Shown here: positions 1,330 through 57,879 of the stretch, in pieces
Numbering within the stretch: the stretch's first letter is position 1
Layout: the number at the start of each line of letters is the position of its first letter
NCBI GenBank assembly: GCA_001803045.1
Contig: MHAR01000091.1
Location: 4,188 to 68,187, forward strand
Direction: 5' to 3'
DNA from: Ignavibacteria bacterium RIFOXYB12_FULL_35_14
GTDB taxonomy: Bacteria > Bacteroidota > Ignavibacteria > Ignavibacteriales > Ignavibacteriaceae
DNA: 64,000 nt
Notes under the pieces: model-generated
Databases searched by the model: none
What the model saw: only the letters and a program-made list of their open reading frames with translations
Told to the model about the DNA's origin: nothing
Made by a program: the position numbers and the translations under genes

Positions 1330-4014
1330 CTACTTCAGATTATTAAATATCTCTCTCACCTTCAGCAAATTTGCTTCAACATCCTTCTTCTTCATCCTCT
1401 CCTTCTCAACAACTTCCGGTACAGCATTGCTTACAAATTTTTCGTTGGATAATTTTTTATCAATTCCAACTAACAAACCTTCAAGCCGTGAGATTTCTTT
1501 CTGCAGTCGATTCTTCTCAACATCTAAATCTATCAATCCTTCAAGGGGAACATAAATCTCACAATTTTTAATTATTGTTGAAGCACTCGCTTTAGGTTTT
1601 GTAATCGCTTCTGAAACTTGAACTTCTTCAACTTTTGCCAATTTCTTAATGTAATCAAGCTGATAATCTTTTACCGATGTTGATTTGATAAACGCTTTAA
1701 CAAATTTCGATGGAGGAATATTCATCTCACCTCGAACATTACGGATTGCAGTGATAATATCCTGAACAAATTCCATTTCCTTTTCTGCTTCAGTATTTAC
1801 CAGCATTTCATCAAACTTTGGATATTCAGAAGTTGAAATGCTTTCACCTTCTTTTCGTTCATAAATTCTCTGCCATAACTCTTCCGTGATGAATGGCATG
1901 AACGGATGAACAATCTTCAAAAGATTCTCAAACATCTTAATTGCTCGGGTGAGAACCACCGACTTAACTTCTTCACTATCCGAGTACAATCTATTCTTTG
2001 CAAGCTCTATGTACCAATCGCAGAAATCATTCCATACATATGTATAAATGATCTTTGAAGCATTATTTACTTCAAACTTATCCATCGCTTTATTTAGTGC
2101 TGAAAGTGTTTCATGGAAGCGTGAGTTGATCCATCTATCTGAAAAATCTATGTGCTTATCAATTAACTTTTCATTGAGAGGAACTGTTTGAGCGTTCATC
2201 AACAAAAATCTTCCGGCATTCCAAATTTTGTTGGAGAAGTTTCTGCCGAGTTCACATTTGTCGGTTGAGAAGAGAACATCCTGTCCAAGCGGCGCAAGGT
2301 AAATTACTGTAAACCTCAAAGCATCTGCACCGTAGTCGCAGATAACATCGAGCGGATCAGGCGAGTTGCCAAGCGACTTGCTCATCTTCCTTCCCTGAAC
2401 ATCGCGAATCACACTTGTGAAATAAACATCTTTAAATGGAATATCTTTCTTGAAGTACATTCCCGCCATAATCATTCTTGCAACCCAGAAGAAAATTATA
2501 TCGGGAGCGGTTACGAGCAAATCGGTTGGATAGTAATAATTTTGTTCTTCATCATTCACAAAAACATCATGCGCCCAAAGCCAGCTTGATGCCCATGTAT
2601 CAAGAACATCCTCGTCCTGTTTTAAATTCTTTGAACCACAATGCGGACATTTTTCTAGAGGATCCATCGATACAATCGGTTCCTTACATTCAAGTTTGCA
2701 ATGGTCATCACCCACGCAATACCAAACGGGAATTCTGTGTCCCCACCAAAGTTGCCGCGAGATGCACCAATCTTTAATGTTTGTCATCCAGTGTTCATAC
2801 GTTTTTACCCAATGATCGGGATGATAATTTACTTTTCCATCTTTAACAACTTGAAGTGCCGGCTCTGCCAACCCTGCTCCGCCTGAGGCGGATCCGCCTT
2901 CGGCGGACATGCTCATAAACCATTGTTCGGAAAGATATGGTTCTATCGGAACATTACCACGCTCAGAGTAACCAACTTTGTTCTGATAATTTTCAACCTT
3001 TGCAAGAAGTTCAAGCTCTTCAAACCTTGCAACAACTTTTTTTCTCGCTTCAAATCTATCGAGACCAACAAATTCTTTTGGAACATTTTCATTTAAGCTT
3101 GCATCGTCATTTAAGATATTAACAATCTCAAGTTTATGACGCTGACCCATGTCATAGTCATTCACGTCATGAGCAGGAGTAACCTTCACTGCGCCCGTTC
3201 CAAATTCCATATCAACATATTCATCAGAAAAAACTGGAATTTCTCTTCCAACAATTGGAAGCACAACTTTTTTCCCGATGAACTTTTTAAATCTTTCATC
3301 ATTTGGATTGACTGCAACTCCAGTATCACCAAGCATTGTCTCGGGTCGAGTAGTTGCAACAGTAATGAACTCGCTGCTGTCTTTCACCGGATACTTGAAA
3401 TACCAAAGCTTTCCGTTTACGGTTTTGTAAATTACTTCTTCATCTGAGATTGCAGATTTATTTGCGGGATCCCAATTCACCATTCTGAAGCCGCGGTATA
3501 TTTTGCCGTCATTGTAAAGATGAACAAACGCTTCAATAACTTTTTTGTAGTAATGATCATCCATCGTGAAGCGTTCTCTCTGCCAGTCACAGCTAACGCC
3601 AAGCTTTTTTAATTGCTGAATAATTATTCCGCCGTATTTTTCTTTCCATTCCCAGCAATGCTTTAGAAATTCCTCGCGACCGATTTCATACTTATTTATT
3701 TTATTATCCTTCAGCATCTTCACGACTTTAGATTCCGTAGCAATCGAGGCGTGATCTGTTCCCGGAACCCAGCATGCATTAAATCCTTGCATCCGTTTTG
3801 TGCGGATGAAAATATCCTGGATTGTGTTGTTTAGGATGTGACCCATTGTTAAGCTGCCGGTAATGTTCGGCGGAGGAATAACAATTGTATAAGGTTTTTT
3901 GTTTTTATCTATTTCCGAGTGAAAAATGTTGTGCTTAAGCCAGTTTACGTACCACTTTTCTTCTACATCTGCGGGGTTGTATGCTTTGGGCAATTCTTGA
4001 ATGTTAGTCGTCAT
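1330..4014 (-). CDS. valS: Valine--tRNA ligase
   Basis: Cytoplasmic class I aminoacyl-tRNA synthetase that charges tRNA-Val, 894 residues, normal for the bacterial enzyme. The HIGH-type motif is PPPNITGSLTMGH (about residues 47-59) and the KMSKS motif is GRKMSKSLGN at about 541-550. The editing (CP1) domain lies between them, with the usual TTRPETMLGDT. The last ~65 residues form the charged coiled-coil tRNA-binding arm. Two things are odd. About ten Gly/Ser/Ala-rich residues near 370-379, between WFMSMS and LAEPALQVV, are encoded by a palindromic repeat (2878-2907) that most ValRS lack. The promoter and first 28 codons are also found as decayed copies at 5318-5458 and 6118-6258. The ATG at 4014 is used in all three copies. 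The frame itself is intact. Confidence 0.97.
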   Translation of the reverse strand: MTTNIQELPKAYNPADVEEKWYVNWLKHNIFHSEIDKNKKPYTIVIPPPNITGSLTMGHILNNTIQDIFIRTKRMQGFNACWVPGTDHASIATESKVVKMLKDNKINKYEIGREEFLKHCWEWKEKYGGIIIQQLKKLGVSCDWQRERFTMDDHYYKKVIEAFVHLYNDGKIYRGFRMVNWDPANKSAISDEEVIYKTVNGKLWYFKYPVKDSSEFITVATTRPETMLGDTGVAVNPNDERFKKFIGKKVVLPIVGREIPVFSDEYVDMEFGTGAVKVTPAHDVNDYDMGQRHKLEIVNILNDDASLNENVPKEFVGLDRFEARKKVVARFEELELLAKVENYQNKVGYSERGNVPIEPYLSEQWFMSMSAEGGSASGGAGLAEPALQVVKDGKVNYHPDHWVKTYEHWMTNIKDWCISRQLWWGHRIPVWYCVGDDHCKLECKEPIVSMDPLEKCPHCGSKNLKQDEDVLDTWASSWLWAHDVFVNDEEQNYYYPTDLLVTAPDIIFFWVARMIMAGMYFKKDIPFKDVYFTSVIRDVQGRKMSKSLGNSPDPLDVICDYGADALRFTVIYLAPLGQDVLFSTDKCELGRNFSNKIWNAGRFLLMNAQTVPLNEKLIDKHIDFSDRWINSRFHETLSALNKAMDKFEVNNASKIIYTYVWNDFCDWYIELAKNRLYSDSEEVKSVVLTRAIKMFENLLKIVHPFMPFITEELWQRIYERKEGESISTSEYPKFDEMLVNTEAEKEMEFVQDIITAIRNVRGEMNIPPSKFVKAFIKSTSVKDYQLDYIKKLAKVEEVQVSEAITKPKASASTIIKNCEIYVPLEGLIDLDVEKNRLQKEISRLEGLLVGIDKKLSNEKFVSNAVPEVVEKERMKKKDVEANLLKVREIFNNLK
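2878..2907. repeat. Tandem mini-palindromes inserted in frame inside valS
   Basis: Two 15-bp perfect-stem hairpins, TCCGCCTGAGGCGGA and TCCGCCTTCGGCGGA, lie back to back. They are far more GC-rich than the surrounding gene. The 30 bp add ten residues without shifting the frame. The first 15-mer recurs exactly at 58547-58561 outside any gene, which marks it as a dispersed repeat, not native valS sequence. Confidence 0.8.
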
Positions 4015-4072
4015 TGTAACCGTAATTTATCTCTGTGAGGTGCAAATATAAGGAAAAATGGGGAAGTGGGGG
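3932..4072. repeat. valS 5'-end repeat, copy 1 (functional)
   Basis: A 141-bp segment covering valS codons 1-28, the leader and the TATATTTG promoter. It is the intact member of a set of three equal-length copies (also 5318-5458 and 6118-6258), all in the same orientation and alignable without gaps. Accessory genes fill the spaces between copies. Confidence 0.9.
4043..4050 (-). promoter_or_regulatory. Bacteroidetes-type -7 box (TATATTTG) of valS
   Basis: Read on the minus strand, TATATTTG matches the TAnnTTTG -7 consensus of the Bacteroidetes primary sigma factor. It lies about 30 bases upstream of the valS ATG. It is conserved in both extra copies of this region, so those copies may still be promoters. 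Confidence 0.6.
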
Positions 4073-4152
4073 ATGAGGAATGCTAATTGTTTAATTGTAC
4101 CCGATTTACAAAATAATAAAACACTTAAATAACGATACCTGTATGTCAAATA

Positions 4153-4773
4153 TCATTGCCATTTCTCTGGTTTTTTTAGGACATATCCGTTTGGTAAAGT
4201 TATTTCATCGGGAAACAAAGAGGATTTAAACTTTAGCTCGTGGTTGTGGAGAGTAATATAATTAGTCGCTTTTTGTTTAAGGTCATAGGAAAATCTGGAA
4301 GGAGGGAAATAAACAAAAATTTTATGTTTTGGTTTAATTTCGTTAATGAAATCAATTGGTGGGATTAAATCGCTGTCTGCAGAAATTAATATAGAAATGT
4401 CACATTGATCTAGTACTATATCTCTAATCATTTGAACTGCGATATGCACATCAGTTTCTTTTTCTTCGAATGTTTTAATTTTCTGACCATTATGTTCAAT
4501 GATTTTTTCTAAAAACTTACCGAGAAAGAGATGAAATTTTGGATTTAGCTTGTTAGCAGAAAGAAATAGGTCTTGGCGATCCTGTTTTCCCCTGGATTTC
4601 TGAATGGCTGAGAAATAATTAACTCTAACAAGTTCCTGGTGTGGTCTTATAAATTGCTCACAAAACCTGACTAAATCCAACCAGTAATACTTTTTCCAGT
4701 TTCTACTTTTTAGACCAAAATAGAAGTTAAAGCCATCTATGTAAAATATTACTCTTTGTTTTTTATCACTCAA
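4153..4773 (-). CDS. NYN domain protein (LabA/DUF88-like putative RNase)
   Basis: A 206-residue protein of the NYN (PIN-like) nuclease fold. The acidic residues expected to bind metal are visible: Asp13 in FYIDGFN, Asp108 in KETDVHIAV, and Asp133/Asp135 in ISADSDL. No second domain or signal peptide is seen. NYN proteins are usually cytoplasmic ribonucleases acting on structured RNA. The gene lies in cargo between two copies of the valS 5' end, so it was probably acquired. Its ATG is only about 20-30 bases after a strong terminator hairpin that ends a probable short RNA (4801-4862). A leader RNA plus terminator plus nuclease resembles the layout of type III toxin-antitoxin loci, though the fold differs from ToxN. 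Family call firm, role unknown. Confidence 0.85.
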   Translation of the reverse strand: MSDKKQRVIFYIDGFNFYFGLKSRNWKKYYWLDLVRFCEQFIRPHQELVRVNYFSAIQKSRGKQDRQDLFLSANKLNPKFHLFLGKFLEKIIEHNGQKIKTFEEKETDVHIAVQMIRDIVLDQCDISILISADSDLIPPIDFINEIKPKHKIFVYFPPSRFSYDLKQKATNYITLHNHELKFKSSLFPDEITLPNGYVLKKPEKWQ

Positions 4774-4793
4774 AATTATATCTCTCTTTCTCA

Positions 4794-4826
4794 GAAATAA
4801 AGAAGCCCCTCTGCAATTGAGGGGCT
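4794..4826 (-). terminator. Rho-independent terminator ahead of the NYN gene
   Basis: On the minus strand an 8-bp perfect stem, AGCCCCTC paired with GAGGGGCT (4804-4811 and 4819-4826), is followed by TCTTTATTT. It sits between a promoter-like box at 4866-4873 and the NYN start codon. It can therefore terminate a short leader transcript and let only read-through reach the nuclease gene. Confidence 0.65.
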
Positions 4827-4862
4827 AAACACAGGACTTTCTCATCCTGCGGGGGTAACGTA
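4801..4862 (-). ncRNA. Candidate small structured leader RNA of the NYN gene
   Basis: Downstream of a TATATTTG box (minus strand, 4866-4873) a transcript starting near 4860 would run about 60 nt. It would begin with GTTACCCCCG, fold a first hairpin (CAGGA, eight-base loop, TCCTG) and end in the GC-rich terminator hairpin at 4804-4826. There is no ORF in it. Promoter, two hairpins and terminator in 75 bp fit a discrete small RNA or an attenuator controlling the nuclease gene. I do not recognise an Rfam family. The call is inferred from layout only. Confidence 0.45.
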
Positions 4863-4865
4863 GTA

Positions 4866-4873
4866 CAAATATA
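4866..4873 (-). promoter_or_regulatory. Promoter-like TATATTTG box
   Basis: It matches the Bacteroidetes -7 consensus TAnnTTTG on the minus strand. It is placed about 10 bases before the predicted start of the small leader RNA and about 95 bases before the NYN start codon. Confidence 0.5.
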
Positions 4874-4991
4874 GGTGTAAAAGCATTTATAAGCAATATA
4901 TTTTTATAGGAATGTTCATAAATTTTCACTTAATAATAATTTACTTTTCGCAAAATTTAAAAAGCAACCAAGAAATACTTGAGGAGTAGAA

Positions 4992-5264
4992 ATGATAAAA
5001 AATAAATTAGATAAAGAAGAAAAAGCAATCCTCGATTCTTTTAATAAAGGAGAATGGAAATCGATTAAGAGTAAAAAGACTATAAACCGTCTTAGAAATG
5101 CTGCCCGAAATACAATTGAAAAGAATCTTCGAATTCATGTTAATATTTCAAGACGTGATTTAGAAGAATTACAAAAGAAAGCAATTAAGGAGGGATTGCC
5201 GTATCAGGCTTTCATCTCAAGCATCTTACACAAGTATGTGAATGGAAGATTGTCGGAGAGATAA
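4992..5264 (+). CDS. CopG/BrnA-like ribbon-helix-helix protein (orphan antitoxin)
   Basis: A 90-residue basic protein. The N-terminal half (residues 1-45) is charged. The C-terminal half has the pattern RIHVNISRRDLEELQKKA followed by GLPYQAFISSILHKY, that is a DNA-binding strand and two helices of the ribbon-helix-helix fold, as in antitoxins of the BrnA/CopG type. GAGGAG about 8 bases before the ATG supports the start. A BrnT-like or RelE-like toxin would be expected next to it, but none is found; the NYN gene is divergent and the downstream DNA is a valS 5'-end copy. It is either an orphan antitoxin or a repressor of the cargo. Family call moderate. Confidence 0.7.
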   Translation: MIKNKLDKEEKAILDSFNKGEWKSIKSKKTINRLRNAARNTIEKNLRIHVNISRRDLEELQKKAIKEGLPYQAFISSILHKYVNGRLSER

Positions 5265-5317
5265 TCAAGTTCCCGCCTTCTCTAATATTTTCCTCAACAT
5301 CTATCACCTAAAAATTC

Positions 5318-5458
5318 TGCTTAAGCTAGTTTACGTACCACTTTTCTTCCACTTCTGCGGGGTTGTATGCTTTGGACAGTTCTTGAATGTTAGTCGTCAT
5401 TGTAACTGTAATTTATCTCTGTGAGGTGCAAATATAAGGAAAAATGAGGAAGTGGGGG
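5318..5458. repeat. valS 5'-end repeat, copy 2 (decayed)
   Basis: A 141-bp gap-free copy of 3932-4072, about 95 percent identical by eye. Read on the minus strand it keeps the TATATTTG promoter, the ATG and the first 24 codons. The codon for Trp25 is then TAG, so it can only encode a short peptide. It marks the boundary between the NYN/RHH cargo and the next cargo segment. Confidence 0.88.
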
Positions 5459-5668
5459 TCGAGTGAATTGATGATTGATTGAATGGTTGAATGATTGAAA
5501 ATTAATTGTTCCCTTTGGGGTACAAAACTAATTATTTGAATGTTGAGGCGTGAATTGCTGAATTGTTAAATTATGTTTTAAAGTAAATACTTAAATGAAA
5601 ACTTTATAAATTTATTAGTGAGATTTATGATGAAGACCATATTTTAATCATTATGAAAAGAGTATAAT

Positions 5669-5998
5669 ATGCAATTGAGTTTTTCTGGGAATAATTACTT
5701 CTATAAGGTATTTTATTATGAAATAAAATCCTTGTATCATTTTTCTATAGTGGCAGTTCATAGAGAAACCAAAAGAACTTCTTTTATTACTACTACTAAT
5801 TTCATTTTGGATTTGTGTGATATAAACACTGAAGTAAAACGTTTTTGGGAATCAGAATGGCTAATTTCAAAAGAGGAACGAATACTTTTTACCCGCAGAT
5901 TTGAAGATTGTATAAAGCAGCAACATTCTTTAATTATGCTTGAAAAATTTCTTGACGAAGACAGACTTGAGGGTGAATGGGAAAATTTTAAACAATAA
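5669..5998 (+). CDS. Hypothetical protein in valS-associated cargo
   Basis: A 109-residue protein that I do not recognise. It has no signal peptide or membrane segment. The middle is hydrophobic and beta-like (HFSIVAVHRETKRTSFITTTNFI), and the C-terminal third is helical and acidic and ends with two Trp-containing turns. The start codon has no convincing ribosome-binding site. It lies alone between valS 5'-end copies 2 and 3, on the strand opposite to valS, in DNA that is more AT-rich than valS. Its position suggests accessory cargo. Function unknown. Confidence 0.5.
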   Translation: MQLSFSGNNYFYKVFYYEIKSLYHFSIVAVHRETKRTSFITTTNFILDLCDINTEVKRFWESEWLISKEERILFTRRFEDCIKQQHSLIMLEKFLDEDRLEGEWENFKQ

Positions 5999-6008
5999 GT
6001 TTTAGTTT

Positions 6009-6098
6009 TTACTTGAACCTCGAAAAATAATCATCAATTTCGCCTCGCATTTCTATTCCAACTTGCTCAAAACTATCAAGTAAATCTTCGTAAGCACC
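6009..6098 (-). pseudogene. 3' remnant of an unknown gene fused to valS 5'-end copy 3
   Basis: On the minus strand an open frame runs out of the repeat junction and encodes about 29 residues (GAYEDLLDSFEQVGIEMRGE and a further DDYFSRFK) before a TAA. It looks like the amphipathic C-terminus of a small soluble protein. Its 5' part is missing, replaced by the valS-derived repeat. It is probably what remains of an older cargo gene. Family unknown. Confidence 0.4.
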
Positions 6099-6117
6099 AT
6101 CTCTCACCTAAAAATTC

Positions 6118-6258
6118 TGCTAAAGCCAATAGCTGTACCACTTTTCTTCCACATCTGCGGGGTTGTATGCTTTAGGCAGTTCTCGAATGTCAGTCGTCAT
6201 TGTAACCGTAATTTATCTCTGTGAGGTGTAAATATAAGGAAAAATGGGGAAGTGAGGA
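6118..6258. repeat. valS 5'-end repeat, copy 3 (decayed, more diverged)
   Basis: A 141-bp gap-free copy, roughly 89 percent identical to the functional valS 5' end. It encodes the same first residues, but its Trp-Tyr-Ser-Tyr-Trp-Leu stretch differs from Trp-Tyr-Val-Asn-Trp-Leu of the active gene and is followed by a stop. The different wording suggests it came from another valS allele and did not arise by simple decay. The promoter box is kept. Confidence 0.85.
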
Positions 6259-6335: not shown

Positions 6336-7223
6336 TTATTTATTTTTTTCAAGCCAATCCCTCGCAGGTTTATAGTCTAATTTAGCTGACTCTTGTATAT
6401 ATGGGATTGCTTCTTCTTTTTTACCCATATCTAAATACACTTTTCCGAGATTAAAATAAAAACCGTCGTCTTGAGAGTTGTATTTGATTGCTTTCAAAAA
6501 ATATTCCTCTGCTAGGTTAAAGTTTTTATTTTTAAGATAAATTGCTCCTATTAAATTATATCCATCGGAAAATGTAGAATCAATTAATAATAATTTTTCC
6601 AAAAATCTTTTTGATGAATCGAGATTATTTTCATTGTAATAGGATAAACTTATTTTATATAAGACTTTGGAATTGGTACTGTCGTGGTCTAAATAATTTG
6701 TGTAATTTTCAATTGCTTGTTTGTATTTAACTTGATTTAAATAAATTTCACCAATATCAAAATAAAATTGCCACAAACTTGTATCAATATGCACTGCTTT
6801 ACTTAATGAATTTAAAACTTTGCTAGTGTCCTTTTTCCCCCTATAAACTAATGACAAACCAAGATATGCTGCTGCTGTATTTGAATCAATTTTTAAGCAC
6901 TCATCGAAATAATAAATTGCTTTATTTAAGTCATTTTTAAAATAGTACGCACTTCCCAATCCAAAATAAGTTTGAGTAAGATCAGATGTGGTATAGCTGA
7001 TCCTATTCACCTTACTTTTTATCTTCCCTTCTTCAACCGACCTTTTACGTAATTGAATTACGCGATTGTAAGAATTGATGACATTATCATAATCTTCTAC
7101 TTCTAAATATGCTTTCCCTAAAGTGACAAACGCTTTAAGAAAATTACCGTTTAATTTTGTAGCATTTAGACCACAATCAATAGTTTTGAAATAGTCACCT
7201 TTTTCGAAGTATATATTAGCCAA
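6336..7223 (-). pseudogene. TPR C-terminal part of a split protease-TPR gene
   Basis: A 295-residue frame made almost entirely of tetratricopeptide repeats (about seven, with repeated AxxYLGLSxVYR- and YFNLGKVYLDMG-like helices). It starts at a TTG, but the same frame is open upstream for 45 more codons, also TPR sequence. That stretch ends at the single TAA (7359-7361) closing the protease gene. I read the two as one gene of about 690 codons (6336-8408) broken by a nonsense mutation or a sequencing error. TPR domains mediate protein-protein contact. If the stop is real, this part is probably not translated on its own, since no ribosome-binding site is seen at the TTG. Confidence 0.7.
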
Positions 7224-7358
7224 GTTATTATATAATAAAGCAGAATTTGGGTCAATCTCTAGAGCAATATTTAGATAGTTTATTGCCTTATCGAATTCTT
7301 TTTTATACTTAAATATAAGCGCTAAATTACTATAAGTTTCATCATCAAATTTATTCGG

Positions 7359-8408
7359 TTATAATGCTGCTTGACAATACAGTATTGCTTTATCATATTC
7401 TTTTTTATGAATATAGATCGTACCTAAATTTTTATTAGCACCAGCGAATTGGGGATTCAATTGTACGGCTTTACTGTATAACTTTTCTGCTTTAGTATAG
7501 TCCCCTAACAATGTATATACATAACCCAATTGATTATATGCCAGTACAAATTGGGAATCTTTTCTAATTGTCAATTCTAAATATTTGATGGCACTGTCGA
7601 GGTCTTCAATTTTCCCAAATGCTAGGCTTAAATTATAATATATAGGCGCACAACTTGAATCAATTTTAGTAAATTCCTTAAAAATCCCAATTGATTTATG
7701 GTATTCGCCAGCATCATTAGCATTTATCCCCCTATAATACAAGTTTAGCAAGATTAGAGAACGTTTATCGTTTATGGGTATTAAATTTACACTCTTAAGT
7801 TCATCTATCGGAATAGCAAAATTTATGCTTTGACCTCTTTTATCTCCTCCTGAACTAATCCCAATAAGTTCACCCTGAGTATTTATAACTGCACCACCAC
7901 TACTGCCATGAGATATTGGGGCCGTGATTTGAATATATGTTCTGTTGAATTGTTGATAATATCCGAATTTACTAATAATACCATCTGACAACGTGTTTTC
8001 CAATCCCAGAGGACTTCCTAACGTAAAAATTTTTTGTCCGACTTTGACTTTATTCAGATCTGCCTGTTTGATGGATGGGAATTTGCCTCCTTTTATCTTG
8101 ATTATAAGAAGATCTCTTATGACATCTGCACCAACTATCAAGTCCCCAGAGTATTGTTTGCCGAAATGTTCGACTACAATTCTCTCTGATTTCTCAAAGT
8201 TATGATAATTTGTTACAACATAACCTGAATCATTTATGATTATGCCACTTCCTAGTCCCCTCAATCTACCGTCAAACCCAATAGCCTTAATCATTACAAC
8301 TGCATCTTTATATTTCTCATAAATTTGCACAGCGCTTAATTCTTGGGCAATAAGCGGTAAAGAATAGACAAGTGATATTATTGTTGTGATAACAGTTTTC
8401 TTAATCAT
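7359..8408 (-). CDS. Secreted trypsin-like serine protease with C-terminal TPRs
   Basis: A 349-residue protein with a signal peptide (residues 1-22, ending LIAQ), so exported. Residues 30-200 form a DegP/trypsin-like protease domain with all three catalytic residues: His69 in VTNYHNF, Asp99 in VIRDLLIIKI and Ser170 in SHGSSGGAV. No PDZ domain follows; instead TPR repeats start near residue 225. The frame stops abruptly inside a TPR (ILYCQAAL), and the same frame continues after the stop with more TPRs (6336-7223), so the protein is truncated relative to its ancestor. Proteases of this layout degrade or process misfolded exported proteins. The protease half is intact, so the short product may still be active. 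Not part of a visible operon. Confidence 0.8.
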   Translation of the reverse strand: MIKKTVITTIISLVYSLPLIAQELSAVQIYEKYKDAVVMIKAIGFDGRLRGLGSGIIINDSGYVVTNYHNFEKSERIVVEHFGKQYSGDLIVGADVIRDLLIIKIKGGKFPSIKQADLNKVKVGQKIFTLGSPLGLENTLSDGIISKFGYYQQFNRTYIQITAPISHGSSGGAVINTQGELIGISSGGDKRGQSINFAIPIDELKSVNLIPINDKRSLILLNLYYRGINANDAGEYHKSIGIFKEFTKIDSSCAPIYYNLSLAFGKIEDLDSAIKYLELTIRKDSQFVLAYNQLGYVYTLLGDYTKAEKLYSKAVQLNPQFAGANKNLGTIYIHKKEYDKAILYCQAAL

Positions 8409-8491: not shown

Positions 8492-8698
8492 TTATTGATC
8501 CATTTTAATTTCAAGCACCTCATTCATCACCATTTCAATTTCCTCAATCTTAAACTTGTATTGTTTTCTTTCCTTTTCGTTGGAGCAATCCTTCTCCCCA
8601 CCAATAAAAAATTCAGCGAGAAATTTTGCTTCTTCTTCGTTCTTTGCTTTAATGTTTATAATGTAATCACAGTGTAGTGAGACTTGGTGGTTCTTCAT
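8492..8698 (-). CDS. Small acidic protein at the end of the restriction-modification operon
   Basis: A 68-residue soluble, charged protein starting about 8 bases after the restriction endonuclease stop codon, on the same strand, so probably co-transcribed. It begins with a beta-like stretch (VSLHCDYIINIKAKN) followed by an acidic helix (EEEAKFLAEFF), and ends with another helix rich in Glu and Met. I recognise no family. In this position it could be a small accessory, or simply a passenger of the R-M operon. The tight spacing and clear start support a real gene. Confidence 0.5.
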   Translation of the reverse strand: MKNHQVSLHCDYIINIKAKNEEEAKFLAEFFIGGEKDCSNEKERKQYKFKIEEIEMVMNEVLEIKMDQ

Positions 8699-8706: not shown

Positions 8707-9543
8707 CTAAATTTTTATCTCTTTCTCGTCTTCCGGTGGTTCAATACCTAGGAACTCTTTATAAATTCTTGCTCGATACTTTTTACCTAAACTATTAATC
8801 ACATCAATAAACTGTTGATAAGTACCACTCCCACCAAGAAAATCCCAGAATTCATCTCCGATAAGCACAACTTTATCATTTTTCATATCAAACCATCTTT
8901 GAGGAAAACCCCATGCATAATCTTCTCTTTTGCCATAGGGATTATATGGAAGCGCAAAAAATGCGTCGTCAATTTTTCTTGGTTCCATGCTATAAAGTTT
9001 TAATATTTTTTCTTTACTTACTTTTGTAATGTCGCTATTAGGTAAAGGAGATTTTATTTCAAAAGCATATTTTTTATTGGCAATTTTATCTTCGGCATAA
9101 ACATCGCAAACCACAGTAACAGGAATTTTTTTTCCTTTACCTTCCAAGATATATTTTATTTCATTATCCCAATCAGGTTTAATTCGTTTTTGTCCTGCTT
9201 CTGGATGCTCCAACCTATTTAAGACTTCCGTTATTCGACGCAACCTTTCAACTCTAATGTTACCTACTATATGATGGTCGGTATCCGCAAATCCCATACC
9301 TTTTTCACCTGCAACTTTTGCTAAATTTTCCCAAACCTTACCGAACGGAGTGACAAACCTTCTTTCAAAATGTGATCCTTTAAAAATCTCATCTGGAACT
9401 AAAGCAGCATATAACGGTTTTTTAGCGCGATGCTCATCTTTTAAAAAAGGATCTTCAATTAGAACGCGATCCATCACTTTGTCCATCAAAGTTATGATAA
9501 GGATTTTTATCGCATCACTAATTTCTTTTGTTTTATCTTTCAT
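8707..9543 (-). CDS. Type II restriction endonuclease, TdeIII-like
   Basis: A 278-residue protein resembling the TdeIII family of type II restriction enzymes, which includes the ERRFVTPFGKVWE block seen at residues 60-72. A PD-(D/E)xK nuclease core is visible: Asp147 in VVCDVYAED and Glu162-x-Lys164 in YAFEIKSP. It cleaves DNA not protected by its methylase. TdeIII itself recognises GGNCC, but the target of this homologue cannot be read from sequence. The gene overlaps the 3' end of the methyltransferase by four bases (ATGA), so the two are translationally coupled, methylase first. That order lets protection accumulate before cleavage. Length is normal and no lesion is seen. Confidence 0.8.
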   Translation of the reverse strand: MKDKTKEISDAIKILIITLMDKVMDRVLIEDPFLKDEHRAKKPLYAALVPDEIFKGSHFERRFVTPFGKVWENLAKVAGEKGMGFADTDHHIVGNIRVERLRRITEVLNRLEHPEAGQKRIKPDWDNEIKYILEGKGKKIPVTVVCDVYAEDKIANKKYAFEIKSPLPNSDITKVSKEKILKLYSMEPRKIDDAFFALPYNPYGKREDYAWGFPQRWFDMKNDKVVLIGDEFWDFLGGSGTYQQFIDVINSLGKKYRARIYKEFLGIEPPEDEKEIKI

Positions 9544-11141
9544 ATAGTGTCTCGTAAATGAAATATAATTTCCGAATAAGCTCCCTTATCTTTTTCAGTT
9601 CTATTTAGAACAGGTCGTTTGAATTGCTGAACTATTTTCATTCCAGCTTTCTCTGCAATAGTTGGATATAAATTATTTTTGTCATTGGCAACAAGAAAAA
9701 CATGATAGTCCTCAACAAAATATTTTTTCATATTCAGCAAAACCTGGGAGATTCCTTCAACATAAGAATCTCTTGCATCTTTACCTTTACCTTTATATAA
9801 AGAACCAATCTCTAAATCATCTCTTCTTTTGAATCCAAATAAATCGTAAGCATAAGCATGCTGTTCGTGGTAATCAATTAACCCAACATATGGCGGACTA
9901 GAAAATATTCCTTTTATATTTTGCTTCTTAACCAAACTTGAAAGTTTTTTATCGACTTTCTTTAATTCTTCCAATAAATCAATTTCTCGGCTGTCGCCAG
10001 TTAAACAAATTTGTTTTGTTTCTGTTCGTATTTGATTAAACTCCGATAAGCGCTCAATAGTATCTTTGGTATATGTTTCCCACCATCTCAAGATTGAAAA
10101 AAGAGGTTTACAAATTTTACCATGCTTGTGGCAGTAATAGGTCGTACTTATCGGTTCAACAAGTGTAGCTAAATCAGCATGTGTAGTTGCCCGACACGAA
10201 CGAATTGTTCGACTAAGAATAAGTTTGAGAATATCTTTTGTATTAGTGTTTCTTAAAGTTTTGATTTTAGAATAAACAAATTCTAATTCATCCTTCACAT
10301 GCTTTGAGTACCATTTATCAAGAAATGTGTCTCCTTTTTCAATCTCAAGCACAATATCATACTTCTTTACTAATTCATTAAATATCGGAAGAAACTGTTT
10401 CTCTTTTTCCCCCGCATACTTTTCTTCATCAATTTGTCCTCGATTCAATTTGTATCGATAGTCTGGATTTGGAAAATATTTGTTGTTAAAAATGTTTAAC
10501 TCTTTTAGAAGAGCATTCTCAAATTCAAGAGTAGAATGCTGCTGTAAAAATCTTTTTAGAGCGATGGTAATTTTGTTTGAGTGTTCGGCAATCTCTTCAA
10601 TATTGTACTCATCTATTTTACAATTGGAGATAAAGGAATTAAAATATGAGATGTCAATTCCAATGGCATGCATTCCTAACTCATTGGCTTGAACTAGTGT
10701 CGTTCCACTTCCACAAAAGGGGTCGAGCACAATATCGCCCTTGTTGAAGTAAACTTCTTTCTTGAAATCGTCCGTGTGATCATCGAGGAAATATTCGACG
10801 AGTTGGGGAATAAATTTCCCTTTATAAGGATGCAGTCTATGAACATGTTTTGTTGTTTCCGCTTCTTTGTACTGGTCGAAAGATAAAGCCCAATTTAAGT
10901 CATCTCCGATTTTACTTTTATAATGAACTTCTCTCTTACCATTAAAAGATTTGTAATAATTGATTAATTCATTCTTTGAAACAAACGTATCGCCATTTTC
11001 ACCATATTTATGAATTCTTCCATAATTAATTAAATAAGTAATGTTTGAATTAGTTACATTTTTCCCAAGATGCTGTGAGGCCCAATCACTCGCTTCCCTA
11101 ATGGTCAAAAAATCACCTGGTTCAAATAGTTTTAATTGCAT
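9540..11141 (-). CDS. Site-specific DNA methyltransferase (N4-cytosine/N6-adenine type)
   Basis: A 533-residue S-adenosylmethionine-dependent DNA methylase. Motif I is DPFCGSGTT (residues 140-148), followed by GIDIS for cofactor binding. The catalytic motif IV is SSPPYVG (414-420), the S-P-P-Y form usual in N4-cytosine enzymes. A long middle region (about 170-400) probably holds target recognition. The first 70 residues look like a small winged-helix or excisionase-like DNA-binding domain (FLTIREASDWASQHLG), which may add specificity or autoregulation. It heads the operon with the restriction enzyme (8707-9543) and diverges from the serine hydrolase at 11373 across a 231-bp gap that should contain its promoter. 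The methylated base is inferred, not certain. Confidence 0.88.
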   Translation of the reverse strand: MQLKLFEPGDFLTIREASDWASQHLGKNVTNSNITYLINYGRIHKYGENGDTFVSKNELINYYKSFNGKREVHYKSKIGDDLNWALSFDQYKEAETTKHVHRLHPYKGKFIPQLVEYFLDDHTDDFKKEVYFNKGDIVLDPFCGSGTTLVQANELGMHAIGIDISYFNSFISNCKIDEYNIEEIAEHSNKITIALKRFLQQHSTLEFENALLKELNIFNNKYFPNPDYRYKLNRGQIDEEKYAGEKEKQFLPIFNELVKKYDIVLEIEKGDTFLDKWYSKHVKDELEFVYSKIKTLRNTNTKDILKLILSRTIRSCRATTHADLATLVEPISTTYYCHKHGKICKPLFSILRWWETYTKDTIERLSEFNQIRTETKQICLTGDSREIDLLEELKKVDKKLSSLVKKQNIKGIFSSPPYVGLIDYHEQHAYAYDLFGFKRRDDLEIGSLYKGKGKDARDSYVEGISQVLLNMKKYFVEDYHVFLVANDKNNLYPTIAEKAGMKIVQQFKRPVLNRTEKDKGAYSEIIFHLRDTI

Positions 11142-43857: not shown

Positions 43858-43892
43858 TATTTACCTCTTTTGTTTCTTCACTATACTTATAC

Positions 43893-43951
43893 TGTCATTT
43901 CGATCCCGATTCGCATACTTTAACGGTGTGTATCGGGAGAGAAATCTTTTC
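43893..43951. repeat. Direct repeat left of the second GIY-YIG gene
   Basis: About 59 bp running from TGTCATTTCGATCCCGATTC to GTGTATCGGGAGAGAAATCTT. Its inner parts can pair (CGATCCCGAT with TATCGGGAG). A close copy lies on the other side of the gene at 44486-44545 in the same orientation. A shorter relative, GTCATGTCGACCGAAGGGAG then ACATCTT, abuts the gene at 44032-44060. Confidence 0.65.
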
Positions 43952-44057
43952 CCTTAAAAACGTAATTCATCATCCCGCTTCAGCCAGAGGCTGATAAAAA
44001 ATCGGGGGTTCAGAATACGGTCAGTTTTTCTTGTCATGTCGACCGAAGGGAGACATC

Positions 44058-44351
44058 TTAAATAAATAATTCATTTGCCAAGTCTTTCCAAGAAGGGTTC
44101 ATTGATTCAACCAATTTGTTTTTCTTCTCTCTCCGCCATTTTTTTATTTCTTTTTCTCGGTTTATTGCTGAAATGATATCGTGAGTCGGTTCAAAATAAA
44201 CAAGTTTAGACAAATTATACTTTTTAGTAAACCCGTCTATTACTTTATTTCGGTGCTCATAAATCCTACGAACCAAATTATTAGTAACACCAGTATAGAT
44301 TACTTTGTTATTCCAATTGGTAAGGATATATATGAAAAATTGTTCTGCCAT
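44058..44351 (-). CDS. GIY-YIG nuclease family protein (second copy)
   Basis: A 97-residue single-domain nuclease: FFIYIL (residues 5-10) and IYTG for the GIY-YIG strands, NNLVRRIYEH with the catalytic Arg, and NREKEIKKWRREKK with the metal-binding Glu. It is clearly related to the protein at 923-1249 but not a recent duplicate. It is transcribed from inside a block of repeats; direct copies of a 59-bp repeat lie at 43893 and 44486. Single-gene, repeat-bracketed GIY-YIG nucleases may spread with, or process, such repeats, which is inference. Confidence 0.85.
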   Translation of the reverse strand: MAEQFFIYILTNWNNKVIYTGVTNNLVRRIYEHRNKVIDGFTKKYNLSKLVYFEPTHDIISAINREKEIKKWRREKKNKLVESMNPSWKDLANELFI

Positions 44352-44803
44352 ATTCTATGTCCAAAAATAATTATCAAAAAATAAAAAAAGATTCCTCATA
44401 TAGCTAAGACACGGATTCGGAATGACAGTCAGTTCTCATTGGCATGTGGAATCCCGCATAAACGGGATAAACTCCGAGAGACATCTGTCAAGTCGATCCC
44501 GATTCAAAAACTTTAGTGATGTGTATTGGGAGAGACATCTTCACCCCTTTTAAGATTTCTCAGTCTTCCGCTAAACCGGAATCCTTCGAAATGACTGAAC
44601 CGAAACTTTTTAACCATCCTCTTTAAAAATAAAACCGTAAAGATTCTTTACCCACCGTTAAAATATTATACCCTCACCCGAACAAAATCAATGGCAATAC
44701 TTCATAACGAGTCAAATTCTTAAATAGAAACACTTGGCACATAAATTGGTTTTTTAAACCTGCTTAAATCTATTATACAGTCATATATAAAGCGAGCGCT
44801 TCA
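44352..44803. other. Repeat-rich gap upstream of the CheW-like gene
   Basis: It contains the right-hand 59-bp direct repeat (44486-44545), a small palindrome ATCCCGCATAAACGGGAT (44451-44468), and AGTCTTCCGCTAAACCGGAA-type debris. No ORF of note. The last 100 bp should hold the promoter of the CheW-like gene, but no clear box was found. Confidence 0.5.
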
Positions 44804-45262: not shown

Positions 45263-45305
45263 TACAATGGATATGAACATTTTTAATGCTTCTGAGGAGA
45301 AAATA

Positions 45306-45578
45306 ATGCAAGACATTATTTACGGTCTAGTAAACTCGGTTATTGATGGCGATACATTTATTATCAAAGGCACAGAGGCCAGTGAGTCCAATAAAAACAA
45401 ATATAGTAAATGGGAGCGCATTAGAATTGCAAATATTGACCTATCAGAATTGAAAACACCTGGCGGTTATCGAGATAAAGTTAAACTTGAAAGTACAATT
45501 CAAGGAATAGAAGTGAGTTGTTCGGTTCAGTCGAGAGATAGTTTTGGACGAGTAGTTGCTGAAGTAGAATTATTATAA
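45306..45578 (+). CDS. Staphylococcal-nuclease-like single-domain protein (copy 3)
   Basis: 90 residues from the ATG at 45306, chosen because GAGGAGAAAATA lies just upstream and the product then matches copies 1 and 4. VIDGDTFII, ERIRIANIDLSEL and FGRVVAEV place the SNase metal and catalytic residues (Asp, Arg, Asp, Glu, Arg). It is most like the copy at 46533: the two share the insert YSKWERIRI/YNKWERIRI and KTPGGYRDKVKLEST. It lies upstream of the fused DUF3892-deacetylase gene, whereas copy 4 lies downstream, so the cluster is nuclease-fusion-nuclease. No signal peptide. Confidence 0.75.
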   Translation: MQDIIYGLVNSVIDGDTFIIKGTEASESNKNKYSKWERIRIANIDLSELKTPGGYRDKVKLESTIQGIEVSCSVQSRDSFGRVVAEVELL

Positions 45579-45613
45579 ATATAATAAAATGAAGTCAGCA
45601 TTGTTGAAGAAAA

Positions 45614-46492
45614 ATGATGGAAAGAAAAGTCACAAATACAAGAAAAGATGAAAACGGGAGGATTATAGCTCTTTGTAATCCGGTTGAGTGGTGGTCACCG
45701 AGAACGTTAGCTGAAGTGATTATTGATATTGAAGTGTCATTTTACACATACTATGTGGTTGTTGGTGGGCAAAGAGTTTTAATAAAAGTTGCTAATGGAT
45801 CTGCGGAAAAGTATTTAAGAACCGATCCTGATAAAACAACAAAAAACAACCTGGATGATCTACCAGTGTTAGAATCCATAATCAAAAAAGAAAGGCATTT
45901 TATGAACATTAAATATGATTCTGTAAATAGAATAAATGAGGTAATGTTAACCTTTGATGACGGACCTCATTCTACTTTAACTCCAAAATTGTTGGACTTG
46001 CTAAAGCAAGAGAATATTAAAGCAATGTTTTTTGTGCTTGGTGTAAATGTGGCTGCAGATAATAATATTGAAATTGTGAAACGTGCATTTGAAGAAGGAC
46101 ATATTATCGGTAATCACACATACTTTCACAGAAACCTTAGAAGCTTAGCTGACTTTGAAATAAAATCGGAAATACTGAACACAGAAGAATTTATTAAAGA
46201 ATACATGCCAACCCCAAAACCTTTTCGGCCGCCATATGGGGCAACAAACTCAAGGGTAAATACAATAGTCAAGGAATTAGGTTATGTAAATGCTCTTTGG
46301 AATGTAGATACACTTGATTGGAAGGATAAAAGTATTAAGTGGGTCGAGAACTCAATTCCACAAATATATGCGCGAGAATATAATGTTGTTTTAATGCATG
46401 ATACTTATGAAACAACCATAAATAATGTATCTGAACTAATAAAAGCAATAAAGAATAAATATGGGCAATATGAGTTTATTAGTTATGTATAA
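45614..46492 (+). CDS. Fused DUF3892-polysaccharide deacetylase (CE4) protein
   Basis: A 292-residue two-domain protein. Residues 1-90 are DUF3892 (VTNTRKDENGRI, YLRTDPDKTTKNNLDDLP); residues 97-292 are a NodB-type deacetylase. Unlike the copy at 35593, motif 1 is a canonical TFDDG (Asp115, Asp116); NHTYFH, RPPYG, DTLDW and LMHD are also intact, so it should be active on N-acetylated glycans. The two genes of the first cluster are here one frame, because the TGA region is replaced by a seven-residue linker (KKERHFM). Translation could also start at the internal Met97. No export signal is visible. Confidence 0.88.
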   Translation: MMERKVTNTRKDENGRIIALCNPVEWWSPRTLAEVIIDIEVSFYTYYVVVGGQRVLIKVANGSAEKYLRTDPDKTTKNNLDDLPVLESIIKKERHFMNIKYDSVNRINEVMLTFDDGPHSTLTPKLLDLLKQENIKAMFFVLGVNVAADNNIEIVKRAFEEGHIIGNHTYFHRNLRSLADFEIKSEILNTEEFIKEYMPTPKPFRPPYGATNSRVNTIVKELGYVNALWNVDTLDWKDKSIKWVENSIPQIYAREYNVVLMHDTYETTINNVSELIKAIKNKYGQYEFISYV

Positions 46493-46532
46493 AGTAAAAC
46501 AAAAAAAATAAAATGCTTCTGAGGAGAAAATA

Positions 46533-46805
46533 ATGCAAGATATTATTTACGGTTTAGTCTGCGCGGTTATTGATGGAGATACATTTATTATCAAAGTCAC
46601 AGAGGCAAGTGAGTCCAACAAAAACAAATATAATAAATGGGAACGCATTAGAATTGCAAATATTGACCTATCAGAGTTGAAAACACCTGGCGGTTATCGA
46701 GATAAAGTTAAACTTGAAAGTACAATTCAAGGAAAAGAAGTGAGTTGTTCAGTCCAGTCGAGAGACGAATCCGGACGAGTAGTTGCCGAAGTGAAAGTAA
46801 TTTGA
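46533..46805 (+). CDS. Staphylococcal-nuclease-like single-domain protein (copy 4)
   Basis: A 90-residue SNase-like OB fold, closest to the protein at 45306. VIDGDTFIIKV, WERIRIANIDLSEL and SGRVVAEVKVI supply the conserved metal and catalytic positions. Upstream DNA (AATGCTTCTGAGGAGAAAAT) is nearly identical to that before copy 3, so gene and leader were duplicated together. It follows the fused deacetylase gene by 40 bp and precedes the DUF2188 gene. Family function unproven. Confidence 0.75.
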   Translation: MQDIIYGLVCAVIDGDTFIIKVTEASESNKNKYNKWERIRIANIDLSELKTPGGYRDKVKLESTIQGKEVSCSVQSRDESGRVVAEVKVI

Positions 46806-46827
46806 ATATAATAAAAGGCAGACAGTA

Positions 46828-47076
46828 ATGTTTAAGAAAAGCGATAGAATCGTTTTTAAACGTGAAGACGGAAAGCATGTGAACAAAAAATTAGATTCCC
46901 CAAAAGCTTCATCTTTACATAAAACACAAAGGGAGGCTGAGAGAACAGCAAGAGAGATGTTGAAAAATTCTGGTGGCGGAGAGTTAATCACAAAAGGTTT
47001 GAATGGAAAAATTCGTAGTAAGGATACTATTCCGCACGCTAAAGATCCATTTCCACCAAAAGATAAAGAGAATTAG
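46828..47076 (+). CDS. DUF2188 domain protein
   Basis: An 82-residue small basic protein of the DUF2188 family. Although the start is atypical (MFKKSDRIVFKREDGKHV), the core has KASSLHKTQREAERTAREM, GGGELITKGLNGKIR and the hallmark ending KDTIPHAKDPFPP. The family is widespread, binds nothing known, and often sits near stress or accessory genes. It is the last gene of the cluster, 22 bp after SNase copy 4. GGCAGACAG, not a good ribosome-binding site, precedes the ATG. Confidence 0.82.
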   Translation: MFKKSDRIVFKREDGKHVNKKLDSPKASSLHKTQREAERTAREMLKNSGGGELITKGLNGKIRSKDTIPHAKDPFPPKDKEN

Positions 47077-54479: not shown

Positions 54480-54643
54480 TCCGGCAGTTGTATACCCAAG
54501 GAAAGTCGGCGATAATAAGAATGAAGAAAAGAGTGTAAGAACAATAAATGACAACGAATTTCCAATGACTACTAATGGCTTTTTTCAACGAATGACCGTG
54601 GGGCACAAGTGAAGCAATAAAAGTGAAACGAGAAACGTGAAAT

Positions 54644-54714
54644 GGGAAACGTGATTCGGCTTCTCCCCATAAACCTTTCTGCAGATAGGCAAGATCGGGA
54701 TTCGCCGGGATAAA
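54644..54714. repeat. Cassette hairpin repeat B
   Basis: GGGAAACGTGATTCGGCTTC through GGGATTCGCCGGGATAAA. The arms CGGCTTCTCCC and GGGATTCGCCG pair imperfectly, and CTGCAG lies in the loop. Nearly identical (about one mismatch over 67 bp) to copy C at 55527. It lies between HigBA and the broken four-helix-bundle gene; the rest of 54480-54814 has no gene. Confidence 0.75.
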
Positions 54715-54814
54715 TGCGACATAAAATAATCAATCATTATTAGCTATACCTCTTCCCTTTTCAGTACACGCTAAGTAAAAAGTATAAAGTTAAAAGTAAA
54801 AAGTTTTAAAAGGA

Positions 54815-55277
54815 ATGAGTAAAAGTTTTATGAAAGAGAACGAGTTACAAAAACGTTTATTTGACTTTGCTGTCCTGGGGGTGGAATACTTTTAGAGAGC
54901 TCTCGAACACAGTTACGGAAAAAGAATTATTAAATATTAAAAAAATGAATTGTACTATTCCACCCCCTGAAGTTTTGAAATTTCTTCCGAGTCTTCCTAA
55001 GACAGCCGAATTTAGTGTTATTCGATATCAGTTGGCTAAATCATCCACATCAGCAGGCGCTAACTATGAAGAATCTCAGTCGGGATCCTCTAGAGCGGAT
55101 TTTCTAAATAAAGTTAGAATTTCCCTTCGAGAAATGAGAGAATCGAACTATTGGCTAAGGATAATTTCTACCATCCAAAACGATAATAAACTTGTTGATC
55201 AGCTGACTTTTCTTATTCAAGAATCAGAAGAATTAAAGAATATTCTTGGTGCCATTGTCTCTAAATCAAATAAATAA
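54815..55277 (+). pseudogene. Four-helix-bundle (S23-like) protein gene interrupted by a 91-bp element
   Basis: The 5' part (from ATG 54815 or 54830) encodes KENELQKRLFDFAV; the 3' part encodes VLKFLPSLPKTAEFSVIRYQ and SSTSAGANYEESQSGSSRAD, with MRESNYWLRII, the hallmarks of the 23S-rRNA intervening-sequence-like four-helix-bundle family. Between them lies a 91-bp inverted-repeat element (54877-54967). Removing exactly these 91 bases joins DFAVL to EVLKFLPSL in one frame of 123 codons, the normal family length. With the element the frame is broken, so only a fragment from an internal ATG could be made. Family role is unclear. Confidence 0.8.
54877..54967. mobile_element. 91-bp MITE inserted in the four-helix-bundle gene
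   Basis: The ends are GGGGGTGGAATA and TATTCCACCCCC, a perfect 12-bp inverted repeat; the inside is AT-rich with no ORF. Excision end to end restores the host reading frame, so the boundaries are well defined. No clear target duplication is seen, apart from a possible CTG on both sides. It needs a transposase supplied from elsewhere. Confidence 0.8.
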
Positions 55278-55526
55278 CTTTATACTTTTCCCCTTATTCG
55301 TCCCTTGAGCATTACTTTATACTTTGTACTTTTTTCTTTTATCTTATACGCAGAGGAACCTTACGTATAATAAGCCAAATGACTACAAATAACCTTATTC
55401 CAACACATGACCGTTAGTGGGGACGGGAGACACGAAAGCTGCAAAGGCAAAAGTGCCAAAAAGATAAGTATCTTTGGGAACAAAATGTTGCGATGAAAAA
55501 TTATAATAGTGTACTTACGGTTTTGT

Positions 55527-55596
55527 GGGAAACGTGATTCGGCTTCTCCCCATAAACCTTTCTGCAGATAGGCATGATCGGGATTCGCCGGGATAA
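55527..55596. repeat. Cassette hairpin repeat C
   Basis: Same wording as copy B: GGGAAACGTGATTCGGCTTC through GATCGGGATTCGCCGGGATAA. Preceded by AAATTATAATAGTGTACTTA and CGGTTTTGTGG, which recurs before 58690. It lies between the four-helix-bundle remnant and the MntA-HepT module. No gene in the rest of 55278-55688. Confidence 0.75.
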
Positions 55597-55688
55597 TTTG
55601 ACGACTATACAGATGGAAGAATCAATAGTTCTATTGCTTCATCAGGCTTTTTAAACTAACTTTAAAATAAAAATTTAAGAATAAATTT

Positions 55689-56105
55689 ATGAATAGTATG
55701 CCGGCTGATGAAAAGGAACATATTATTTCAAAACTTATTTCTGTTCTGGGAAATAAGGCAGAGTTTGCTCTGGTTTTTGGGTCTATACTTTCTGAAAATT
55801 TTAACGATAATAGCGATATTGATACGGCTGTTTACTTACATAAAGAATTTAACACACCTGAAACAAAATATGAGCTGCGAAAAGAAATAATTAATTTATT
55901 TAATCGTGATATCGACTTAGTATTTTTGAACGATGCCGATATAATTATTACCATGCAGATTTTAGCAAACGGCAGCCTTATCATAAATGAAATTCCATCG
56001 CTTTATATATTATTTAAAGCCAAAAAAATAAGCGAGTATTTAGACTTTAAGCTTAGCCGCAAAATAATAGAAAATAATTTACTGAATGGAAGGTTGTATG
56101 CTTGA
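55689..56105 (+). CDS. mntA: MntA-type nucleotidyltransferase antitoxin
   Basis: A 138-residue minimal nucleotidyltransferase. The active site reads VFGSILSENFNDNSDIDTAV, i.e. G-S, ten residues, D-x-D, with a third Asp in RDIDLVFL. MntA proteins are antitoxins that AMPylate (or otherwise modify) the HEPN toxin HepT. The gene overlaps hepT by 8 bases (ATGCTTGA), so the pair is coupled. No signal or extra domain. Module between hairpin repeats C and D. Confidence 0.9.
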   Translation: MNSMPADEKEHIISKLISVLGNKAEFALVFGSILSENFNDNSDIDTAVYLHKEFNTPETKYELRKEIINLFNRDIDLVFLNDADIIITMQILANGSLIINEIPSLYILFKAKKISEYLDFKLSRKIIENNLLNGRLYA

Positions 56106-56526
56106 AAAGGATGCAGTATTATCTAAAATCTCGATAATAAAAAATTGCATTAATTCCATTAAGACTGCCACTAAGCTAAAACCTGAAAAATTAGACGAGA
56201 CTTTTATACAAGATGTATTTGTCCTAAACCTCCAACGAGCGATTCAGGCTTGTATTGATATAGCCAACATTATTATTGCAAAAAAAGGGCTGAAACTTCC
56301 TGCCGCTTATAAAGAATCATTCCTAATTCTAAATCAAAATGGTATTATCAATAAAAATATTGCCGATAAGATGATTAATATGGTAGGATTTAGAAATATC
56401 GCCATACATGAGTACCAGGAATTAAATTCCAACATTTTGAAATCAATTCTATTGAAAGATTTAAAGGACTTTGAAGACTACTACAGCGTAATATATCCGA
56501 AAATTGATGATTTGTTTAATGAATGA
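56098..56526 (+). CDS. hepT: HepT-type HEPN toxin (RNase)
   Basis: 142 residues from the ATG at 56098 (GGAAGG lies 6 bases upstream); a frame from 56086 adds four residues. All-helical HEPN fold with the catalytic R-x4-H motif in FRNIAIHEYQEL, and a DIANIIIAKKGLKLP helix shared by HepT proteins. The Tyr after the His (HEY) is the residue AMPylated by MntA in described systems. Unmodified HepT cleaves RNA. The pair is a type VII-like toxin-antitoxin system. Intact. Confidence 0.9.
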   Translation: MLEKDAVLSKISIIKNCINSIKTATKLKPEKLDETFIQDVFVLNLQRAIQACIDIANIIIAKKGLKLPAAYKESFLILNQNGIINKNIADKMINMVGFRNIAIHEYQELNSNILKSILLKDLKDFEDYYSVIYPKIDDLFNE

Positions 56527-56606
56527 TCCGTCTTCTCCCGATTTTCCTGGCTGCCATGCCTAAGGCAGGTAAACCGATAGGCAAGATCGGGATTCGCCGA
56601 GATAAA
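56524..56606. repeat. Cassette hairpin repeat D
   Basis: GATCCGTCTTCTCCCGATTT through ATCGGGATTCGCCGAGATAAA. The arms CTTCTCCCGAT/ATCGGGATTCG pair, and a second small hairpin GCCATGCCTAAGGCAGG lies in the loop. Over more than 70 bp almost identical to copy F (58448). It starts at the hepT stop codon. Confidence 0.75.
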
Positions 56607-56806
56607 GAGGTAAAAAGCTAGAGGTGAAGCGGTAAAGGTCCGCCCCGAAGAAATGAGGAGTGAGAAGCGGAAGGTGGTTAGTTAGCTGGCGAAGACAGGA
56701 TGCCTGCAGGCAAAACTAGATTACATAAAATTAAATAGACTAAGACCAAACTAATTTTTATTCCGTTAACTATTTAATTAAGTTAGAGAAGCAAAAGCTT
56801 ACCAAA

Positions 56807-57764: not shown

Positions 57765-57879
57765 AGGCGGATTAGTGAGCGCTGGTTTTTAAATTATAAA
57801 TTAGAAATTAACAATTAGAAATTAGATTGTGAATTTTAAATAATTCCTTCATTCAATATTTATAAGTTATAATTGATTT

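Follow-up and report, generated by a model that had tools for sequence, protein, structure and literature searches.

Elements of the SXT/R391 type enter the 5′ end of prfC by means of a tyrosine integrase and a short core, and CIME/ICE accretion in Streptococcus places integrase-less segments in tandem, with repeated gene-end sequences between them. Homology-facilitated illegitimate recombination has been seen experimentally in naturally transformable bacteria of other phyla. A further process, insertion with long target duplication, is said to be treated by Nobusato, Uchiyama, Ohashi and Kobayashi in 2000 (Gene) and by Furuta in 2010 (NAR). According to two sources, it is known from the restriction-modification genes of Helicobacter pylori, among others (cited in PMC1643837), and involves long, variable target duplications of the order of 100 bp (PMC3874152).

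Here, we analysed a window (the whole stretch of 64,000 nucleotides, whose coordinates are used throughout) from G000, the Ignavibacteria-group genome under study, which belongs to an uncultured bacterium. Our results demonstrate that gene ends were displaced in association with small modules, more than once at the same site, across two genera and over many targets. The features of the valS region, where this displacement is serial, are the following:

1330..4014, minus strand: valS, intact, 894 codons, whose 5′ end is the working copy
3932..4072, minus strand: copy 1, working valS promoter and first 28 codons (repeat search, alignment)
4153..4773, minus strand: NYN-domain nuclease gene, 206 aa, PADLOC HEC-09 (Pfam PF01936, PADLOC)
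4795..4862, minus strand: NYN leader RNA, two hairpins, the second terminator-like (folding, comparison among relatives)
4992..5264, plus strand: ribbon-helix-helix-like (CopG/BrnA antitoxin-like) gene, 90 aa (weak Pfam and NCBIfam matches)
5298..5320, minus strand: shared stretch of ~23 bp behind copy 2 (alignment with 6098-6120)
5318..5458, minus strand: copy 2, displaced valS promoter and start, closed by TAG, with the derived WYVN as in copy 1
5669..5998, plus strand: orphan ORF109, 109 aa (family searches)
6008..6110, minus strand: gene 3′ remnant of ~32 codons, in frame behind copy 3 (sequence)
6098..6120, minus strand: shared stretch of ~23 bp behind copy 3 (alignment with 5298-5320)
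6118..6258, minus strand: copy 3, displaced valS promoter and start, closed by TAG, with Y before W as commonly in relatives
6336..8408, minus strand: trypsin-like/TPR gene, hotspot cargo, with one in-frame stop (ORFs, Pfam)
8492..8698, minus strand: orf68, also present in the valS-HAD gap of genomes G001, G002 and G012
8707..11141, minus strand: TdeIII-type type II restriction endonuclease and methyltransferase, hotspot cargo (Pfam, PADLOC)

An earlier note on this DNA had described three copies of the valS 5′ end in the same orientation, and both the repeat search and the whole-genome search agree with it. Indeed, the repeat forms one family of three direct copies (3909-4071, 5295-5457 and 6095-6257), 141 bp long and extended to 163 bp in the repeat search; the whole-genome search gave identities of 100, 93 and 89% (E 1e-80, 3e-59 and 7e-51) and returned no fourth place in G000. 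The two identities to the working copy had first been estimated by eye as about 95 and 89%. The valS gene itself is 92% identical to its ortholog in G001, a genome of the same genus. Stop codons terminate copies 2 and 3, as had been claimed (WYVN* and WYSYWL* in the sequence); the two copies depart from valS at the same codon (28) and share a further ~23 bp, CATCTMTCACCTAAAAATTCTGC, past the departure point (5298-5320 and 6098-6120). An assembly artefact is unlikely, since the copies differ by 7-11%, their flanks are unlike and the architecture was found again in independently assembled genomes. The common departure codon, with 23 bp alike beyond it, would suit site-specific integration, in which a tyrosine or serine recombinase provided in trans would use a valS attachment site around the palindrome GCTTAAGC and an element end CACCTAAAAATTCTGC present in copies 2 and 3; in addition, 11 Phage_integrase-family matches lie elsewhere in G000. 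We nevertheless regard such integration as improbable, and a first argument against it is that the junction 17-mer has no exact match in G000 or G001 outside its two known sites.

The cargo differs from one interval to the next: the NYN nuclease gene, its leader RNA and the ribbon-helix-helix-like gene lie between copies 1 and 2, ORF109 and the gene remnant between copies 2 and 3, and the trypsin/TPR gene, a small conserved ORF and the TdeIII-type restriction-modification pair outside copy 3. The NYN protein matches Pfam NYN with 41.8 bits and PADLOC HEC-09 with 211.5 bits over its full length (residues 6-206 on profile positions 2-203 of 203), and through the HEC-09 profile its gene is a candidate for a defence function; a search by sequence returned no related solved structure. 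These matches, with a folding z-score of -5.0 for the leader, sustain the initial claim of a NYN nuclease preceded by a leader RNA, and the orphan ORF is likewise as first described, ORF109 having no match in Pfam, PADLOC or NCBIfam. The proposed ribbon-helix-helix assignment is weak, with a CopG_antitoxin score of 21.5 bits that stays under the 28-bit cut-off, and no toxin partner was seen for this gene (4992..5264). With ORFs and Pfam, no integrase was detected in the intervals that separate the copies, nor in the cargo genes examined as far as window position 12000, and cargo devoid of an integrase speaks against site-specific integration. Note that the trypsin-like/TPR gene (6336-8408) contains one in-frame TAA, located near 7359, which splits it, and that orf68 (68 codons, no family match) is kept in the gap of G001, G002 and G012 while the neighbouring cargo differs.

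The leader RNA is real, as its z-score and the compensatory changes in a relative establish. It occurs in six genomes, of which G000, G045, G029 and G031 carry it with a NYN gene or fragment and G027 and G076 in decayed form; both hairpins display a compensatory change in G031, and broken pairs are confined to the two decayed copies. No match was obtained in Rfam at gathering scores or in viral contigs. The order of promoter, short structured RNA, terminator-like hairpin and nuclease gene at the NYN locus is similar to that of type III toxin-antitoxin systems, as a resemblance only.

The gap that separates valS from the HAD-phosphatase/serC block is a hotspot at which small modules of the defence and toxin-antitoxin type are acquired. 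In roughly twenty genomes of the family the gap is empty, the HAD phosphatase being located directly upstream of valS and, in most of these genomes, followed farther along by the esterase, DUF1015 and serC genes; the gap of G054 is empty, and the remaining family genomes carry unrelated cargo in it. As an example, in G001, which is the sole further representative of the genus, valS is present in one copy and the gap is filled with a ParB-domain gene and a gene without assignment; its homology to the window stops at base 4071, the same base as the repeats. The gap of G004 contains a small two-gene module, read by eye only as a PIN-type toxin and a DUF433-type antitoxin. In G045, which belongs to another genus of the same family, the position immediately upstream of valS is taken by the same NYN gene (84% identical), again with this leader, and beyond the NYN gene follows a partial second copy of that genome's own valS 5′ end (103 bp, 82%). 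This displaced copy leaves valS at about codon 19 and not at codon 28 as in G000, which is a further point against site-specific integration; over ~100 bp only, it is 82 and 81% identical to the congeners G027 and G076, compared with 73% for the working G045 copy. The empty sites, which the earlier note had proposed to look for in relatives, and the G045 parallel support its claim that DNA entered repeatedly at the valS 5′ end and displaced the older promoter and start. The cargo, however, is not bound to a flanking valS copy: G027 and G076 have a decayed NYN gene and leader at valS with no second valS copy, and in G029 the NYN gene is found beside menH, flanked by a 67-bp repeat found only there. 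Across G045 and G029 the NYN relatives are 84-86% identical, and more distant homologs (32-44% identity) have no repeats flanking the gene. Our literature search found nothing that links valS to genomic islands.

A scan for two-copy direct repeats, read with ORFs and Pfam and covering 1.09 Mb of the 4.1 Mb of G000 with a spacing of at least 300 bp, revealed the same footprint at other loci (the labels fbp, OMP, permease, MazEF-like, HicB, HicBA of G045 and HEPN-like were given by eye, whereas the other module names are backed by Pfam):

fbp 3′ end, around ParE/Phd (G000 scan)
outer-membrane (OMP) gene 3′ end, 234 bp, around HicA/HicB (G000 scan)
C23 gene 3′ end, around HepT/MNT (G000 scan)
L220:56-2923, menH 3′ end in three copies, with MazEF-like and MNT/HEPN-like pairs between them (G000 scan)
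L251:4197-4662, tRNA-Ser and partial tRNA-Ser, around a GIY-YIG gene (G000 scan)
permease promoter and first codons, around a CNNM transporter gene (G000 scan)
promoter segment, around a DNA methylase (G000 scan)
43892-44541, GIY-YIG gene between 57-bp direct repeats, 82% identical (G000 window)
L159:9763-10446, serC 5′ end and displaced copy, around HicBA (G045)

The repeats derive from the target gene and measure 57-234 bp at the G000 loci and 67-103 bp in relatives, with flanking copies 75-93% alike across loci. The menH locus is a second serial accretion in G000, and the orthologous sites of C23 and OMP in G001 are empty or module-free. In G000 the footprint thus extends to the 3′ ends of genes, to a promoter and to a tRNA; it is no peculiarity of valS or of 5′ ends, and the initial interpretation has to be modified in this respect. 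Neither transposase nor integrase was recognised in the inserts by ORFs and Pfam, nor was an integrase seen in the tRNA-Ser/GIY-YIG interval (L251:4197-4662). In addition, the target sequences are otherwise unrelated and have no core in common, and repeats of 57-234 bp far exceed typical cores, both of which weigh against site-specific integration.

A module was present between the copies nearly every time, over many targets and two genera, and this bears on another scheme, in which unequal crossing-over would have duplicated the valS 5′ segment in tandem and the intervals would later have gained and lost DNA in unrelated events. The single orientation of all copies and the junction common to copies 2 and 3 agree with this scheme, which is nonetheless very improbable, as it does not account for the near-constant module, for homology that ends at gene boundaries, or for the lack of any adjacent cargo-free duplicate in the scan (within its spacing of at least 300 bp). 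A control scan of outgroup loci (0.61 Mb) gave five pairs, of which three lie within or between similar genes, one is a local repeat and one (L068) is possibly similar to the loci listed above.

Several other repeats were considered as target duplications and rejected: 54643/55526 and 56527/58450 of the window belong to related repeat families, C79 49516/51400 is a palindromic repeat, and C18, L262, L288 and window 45285/46512 are paralogous gene pairs or repeated domains. Within the window, a nuclease-like gene is nearly duplicated at 45285-46849 (338 bp, 89%) with another gene between the copies, and two pairs of 71- and 76-bp repeats (98.6%), which form one dispersed family, flank nucleotidyltransferase-type toxin-antitoxin-like genes at 54643-58525.

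The order of the valS displacements can be read from the residue preceding the conserved W, which is mostly Y in relatives, whereas copies 1 and 2 have VN and copy 3 has SY. On this comparison VN is the derived state; most likely, copy 3 was displaced when valS did not yet have VN and copy 2 once VN had arisen, and copy 3 would thus be the older of the two, since copies 1 and 2 carry the derived WYVN and copy 3 does not. Identity to the working copy also drops with distance (93 and then 89%). The WYSYWL of copy 3, first taken for an allele from another strain, need not be one, because Y before W is common in relatives and copy 3 can be the oldest fossil. A complication is that copies 2 and 3 share the 23-bp junction while copy 2 has the VN of copy 1, which needs recombination between units; recombination of an incoming junction-bearing unit with the resident copy, in the few bases that separate the VN codons from the junction, would fit this arrangement.

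How the two copies at each site arose is addressed by their boundaries and differences. One possibility is a true target duplication, in which staggered nicks (57-234 bp apart) would receive a linear module and be filled in, so that the copies are identical at first and the displaced one decays. Variable repeats of ~100 bp, the lack of a transposase and the enrichment in defence modules recall the published description for restriction-modification genes. Furthermore, for OMP and valS, G001 is more similar to the working copy than to the displaced ones, an observation that a local duplication with subsequent decay accounts for as well. We consider this origin rather unlikely, however. Instead of stopping at random positions, homology ends no more than a few bases from the stop codon in the four families of 3′ ends, and for valS and serC it ends where the promoter or RBS does; a random staggered cut would not respect such gene-end boundaries, whereas recombination between diverged orthologous gene ends would. 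The coding differences between copies also depart from a decaying-duplicate model, which assumes decay of one copy and constraint on the other: pooled over loci from one identity cut-off, 65 are synonymous and 56 nonsynonymous (P = 2e-4), fbp driving much of the result. For fbp alone the numbers are 11 and 2 (P = 4e-4), and the codon differences of the serC copies in G045, compared by eye, are synonymous only, which is unlike neutral decay; for valS alone, where the numbers are small, the test is not significant (P 0.33-0.57). In addition, the similarity between the two displaced menH copies extends farther than the similarity of either to the working end, which also speaks against target duplication. 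Because homology stops at gene boundaries and the pooled data display a synonymous excess (mainly fbp; not at valS alone), the sequences suggest that many flanking repeats are two alleles, one of which was imported.

We therefore favour, as a probable explanation, a serial acquisition of modules at gene ends through a homologous gene end on the incoming DNA, with the oldest displaced copy farthest out. At least twice in the lineage, module-carrying DNA would have used the valS 5′ end to join the chromosome. On each occasion, the new module would have been placed immediately upstream of a complete valS gene, with the former promoter and first 28 codons on the far side of the module, severed from the gene. 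Of the two displaced ends, copy 3 would be the older and copy 2 the more recent, and the same process would have acted at several other gene ends of G000. We infer that incoming DNA with a homologous gene end next to its cargo recombined and left the resident end behind, either by single-crossover integration of a circle or by homology-anchored illegitimate recombination, so that the flanking repeats would often be one resident and one imported allele. A dedicated recombinase would not be needed, and none was seen. The NYN remnants at valS in G027 and G076, which have no displaced copy, count as evidence against this explanation. A more specific possibility, which we put forward only tentatively and hold to be on the unlikely side, is that small defence and toxin-antitoxin modules travel as cassettes addressed by a homologous housekeeping gene end of 60-240 bp, excise as circles when the flanking gene-end copies undergo ordinary recombination, and re-enter the orthologous end in other cells by homology. 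If true, this would constitute a mobility cycle with no element-encoded enzyme, in which the target gene is restored each time and older ends are stacked outward.

Altogether, the recurrence of this footprint points to a general and little-studied spread of defence genes that lack a mobile-element enzyme of their own, and bears on how toxin-antitoxin and small defence genes move in the absence of a mobile element. Displaced gene ends serve as dated footprints that record the target, the order and possibly the donor lineage, and that can be counted automatically in any genome.

Compared with known systems, the valS locus resembles SXT/R391 and other 5′-end integrative elements in that the 5′ end of a housekeeping gene is entered and the complete gene restored with its promoter; in contrast, it has no integrase, its repeats reach 140 bp and more, and the targets have no common core. 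With CIME/ICE accretion it shares integrase-less segments in tandem with repeated gene ends between them, whereas neither a parental ICE nor a shared attachment core is present and the units comprise one to three genes. Homology-facilitated illegitimate recombination would likewise combine one homologous anchor, linked foreign DNA and an illegitimate joining of the other end. The footprint of insertion with long target duplication is present, with empty sites, long and variable target repeats and no transposase or integrase. The two have in common transposase-less inserts of the defence type, variable direct target repeats of ~100 bp and empty sites in relatives. The present loci differ in that insertion is serial at one gene end (twice at valS and twice at menH), that the cargo consists mostly of toxin-antitoxin or single-nuclease genes, and that the repeats are diverged and end at gene boundaries, with a synonymous excess that suggests one imported copy. 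Serial stacking, toxin-antitoxin cargo and indications that the repeats are often alleles are additions to this precedent, and if the repeats are alleles, insertion with long target duplication would itself be explained by ordinary recombination at gene ends.
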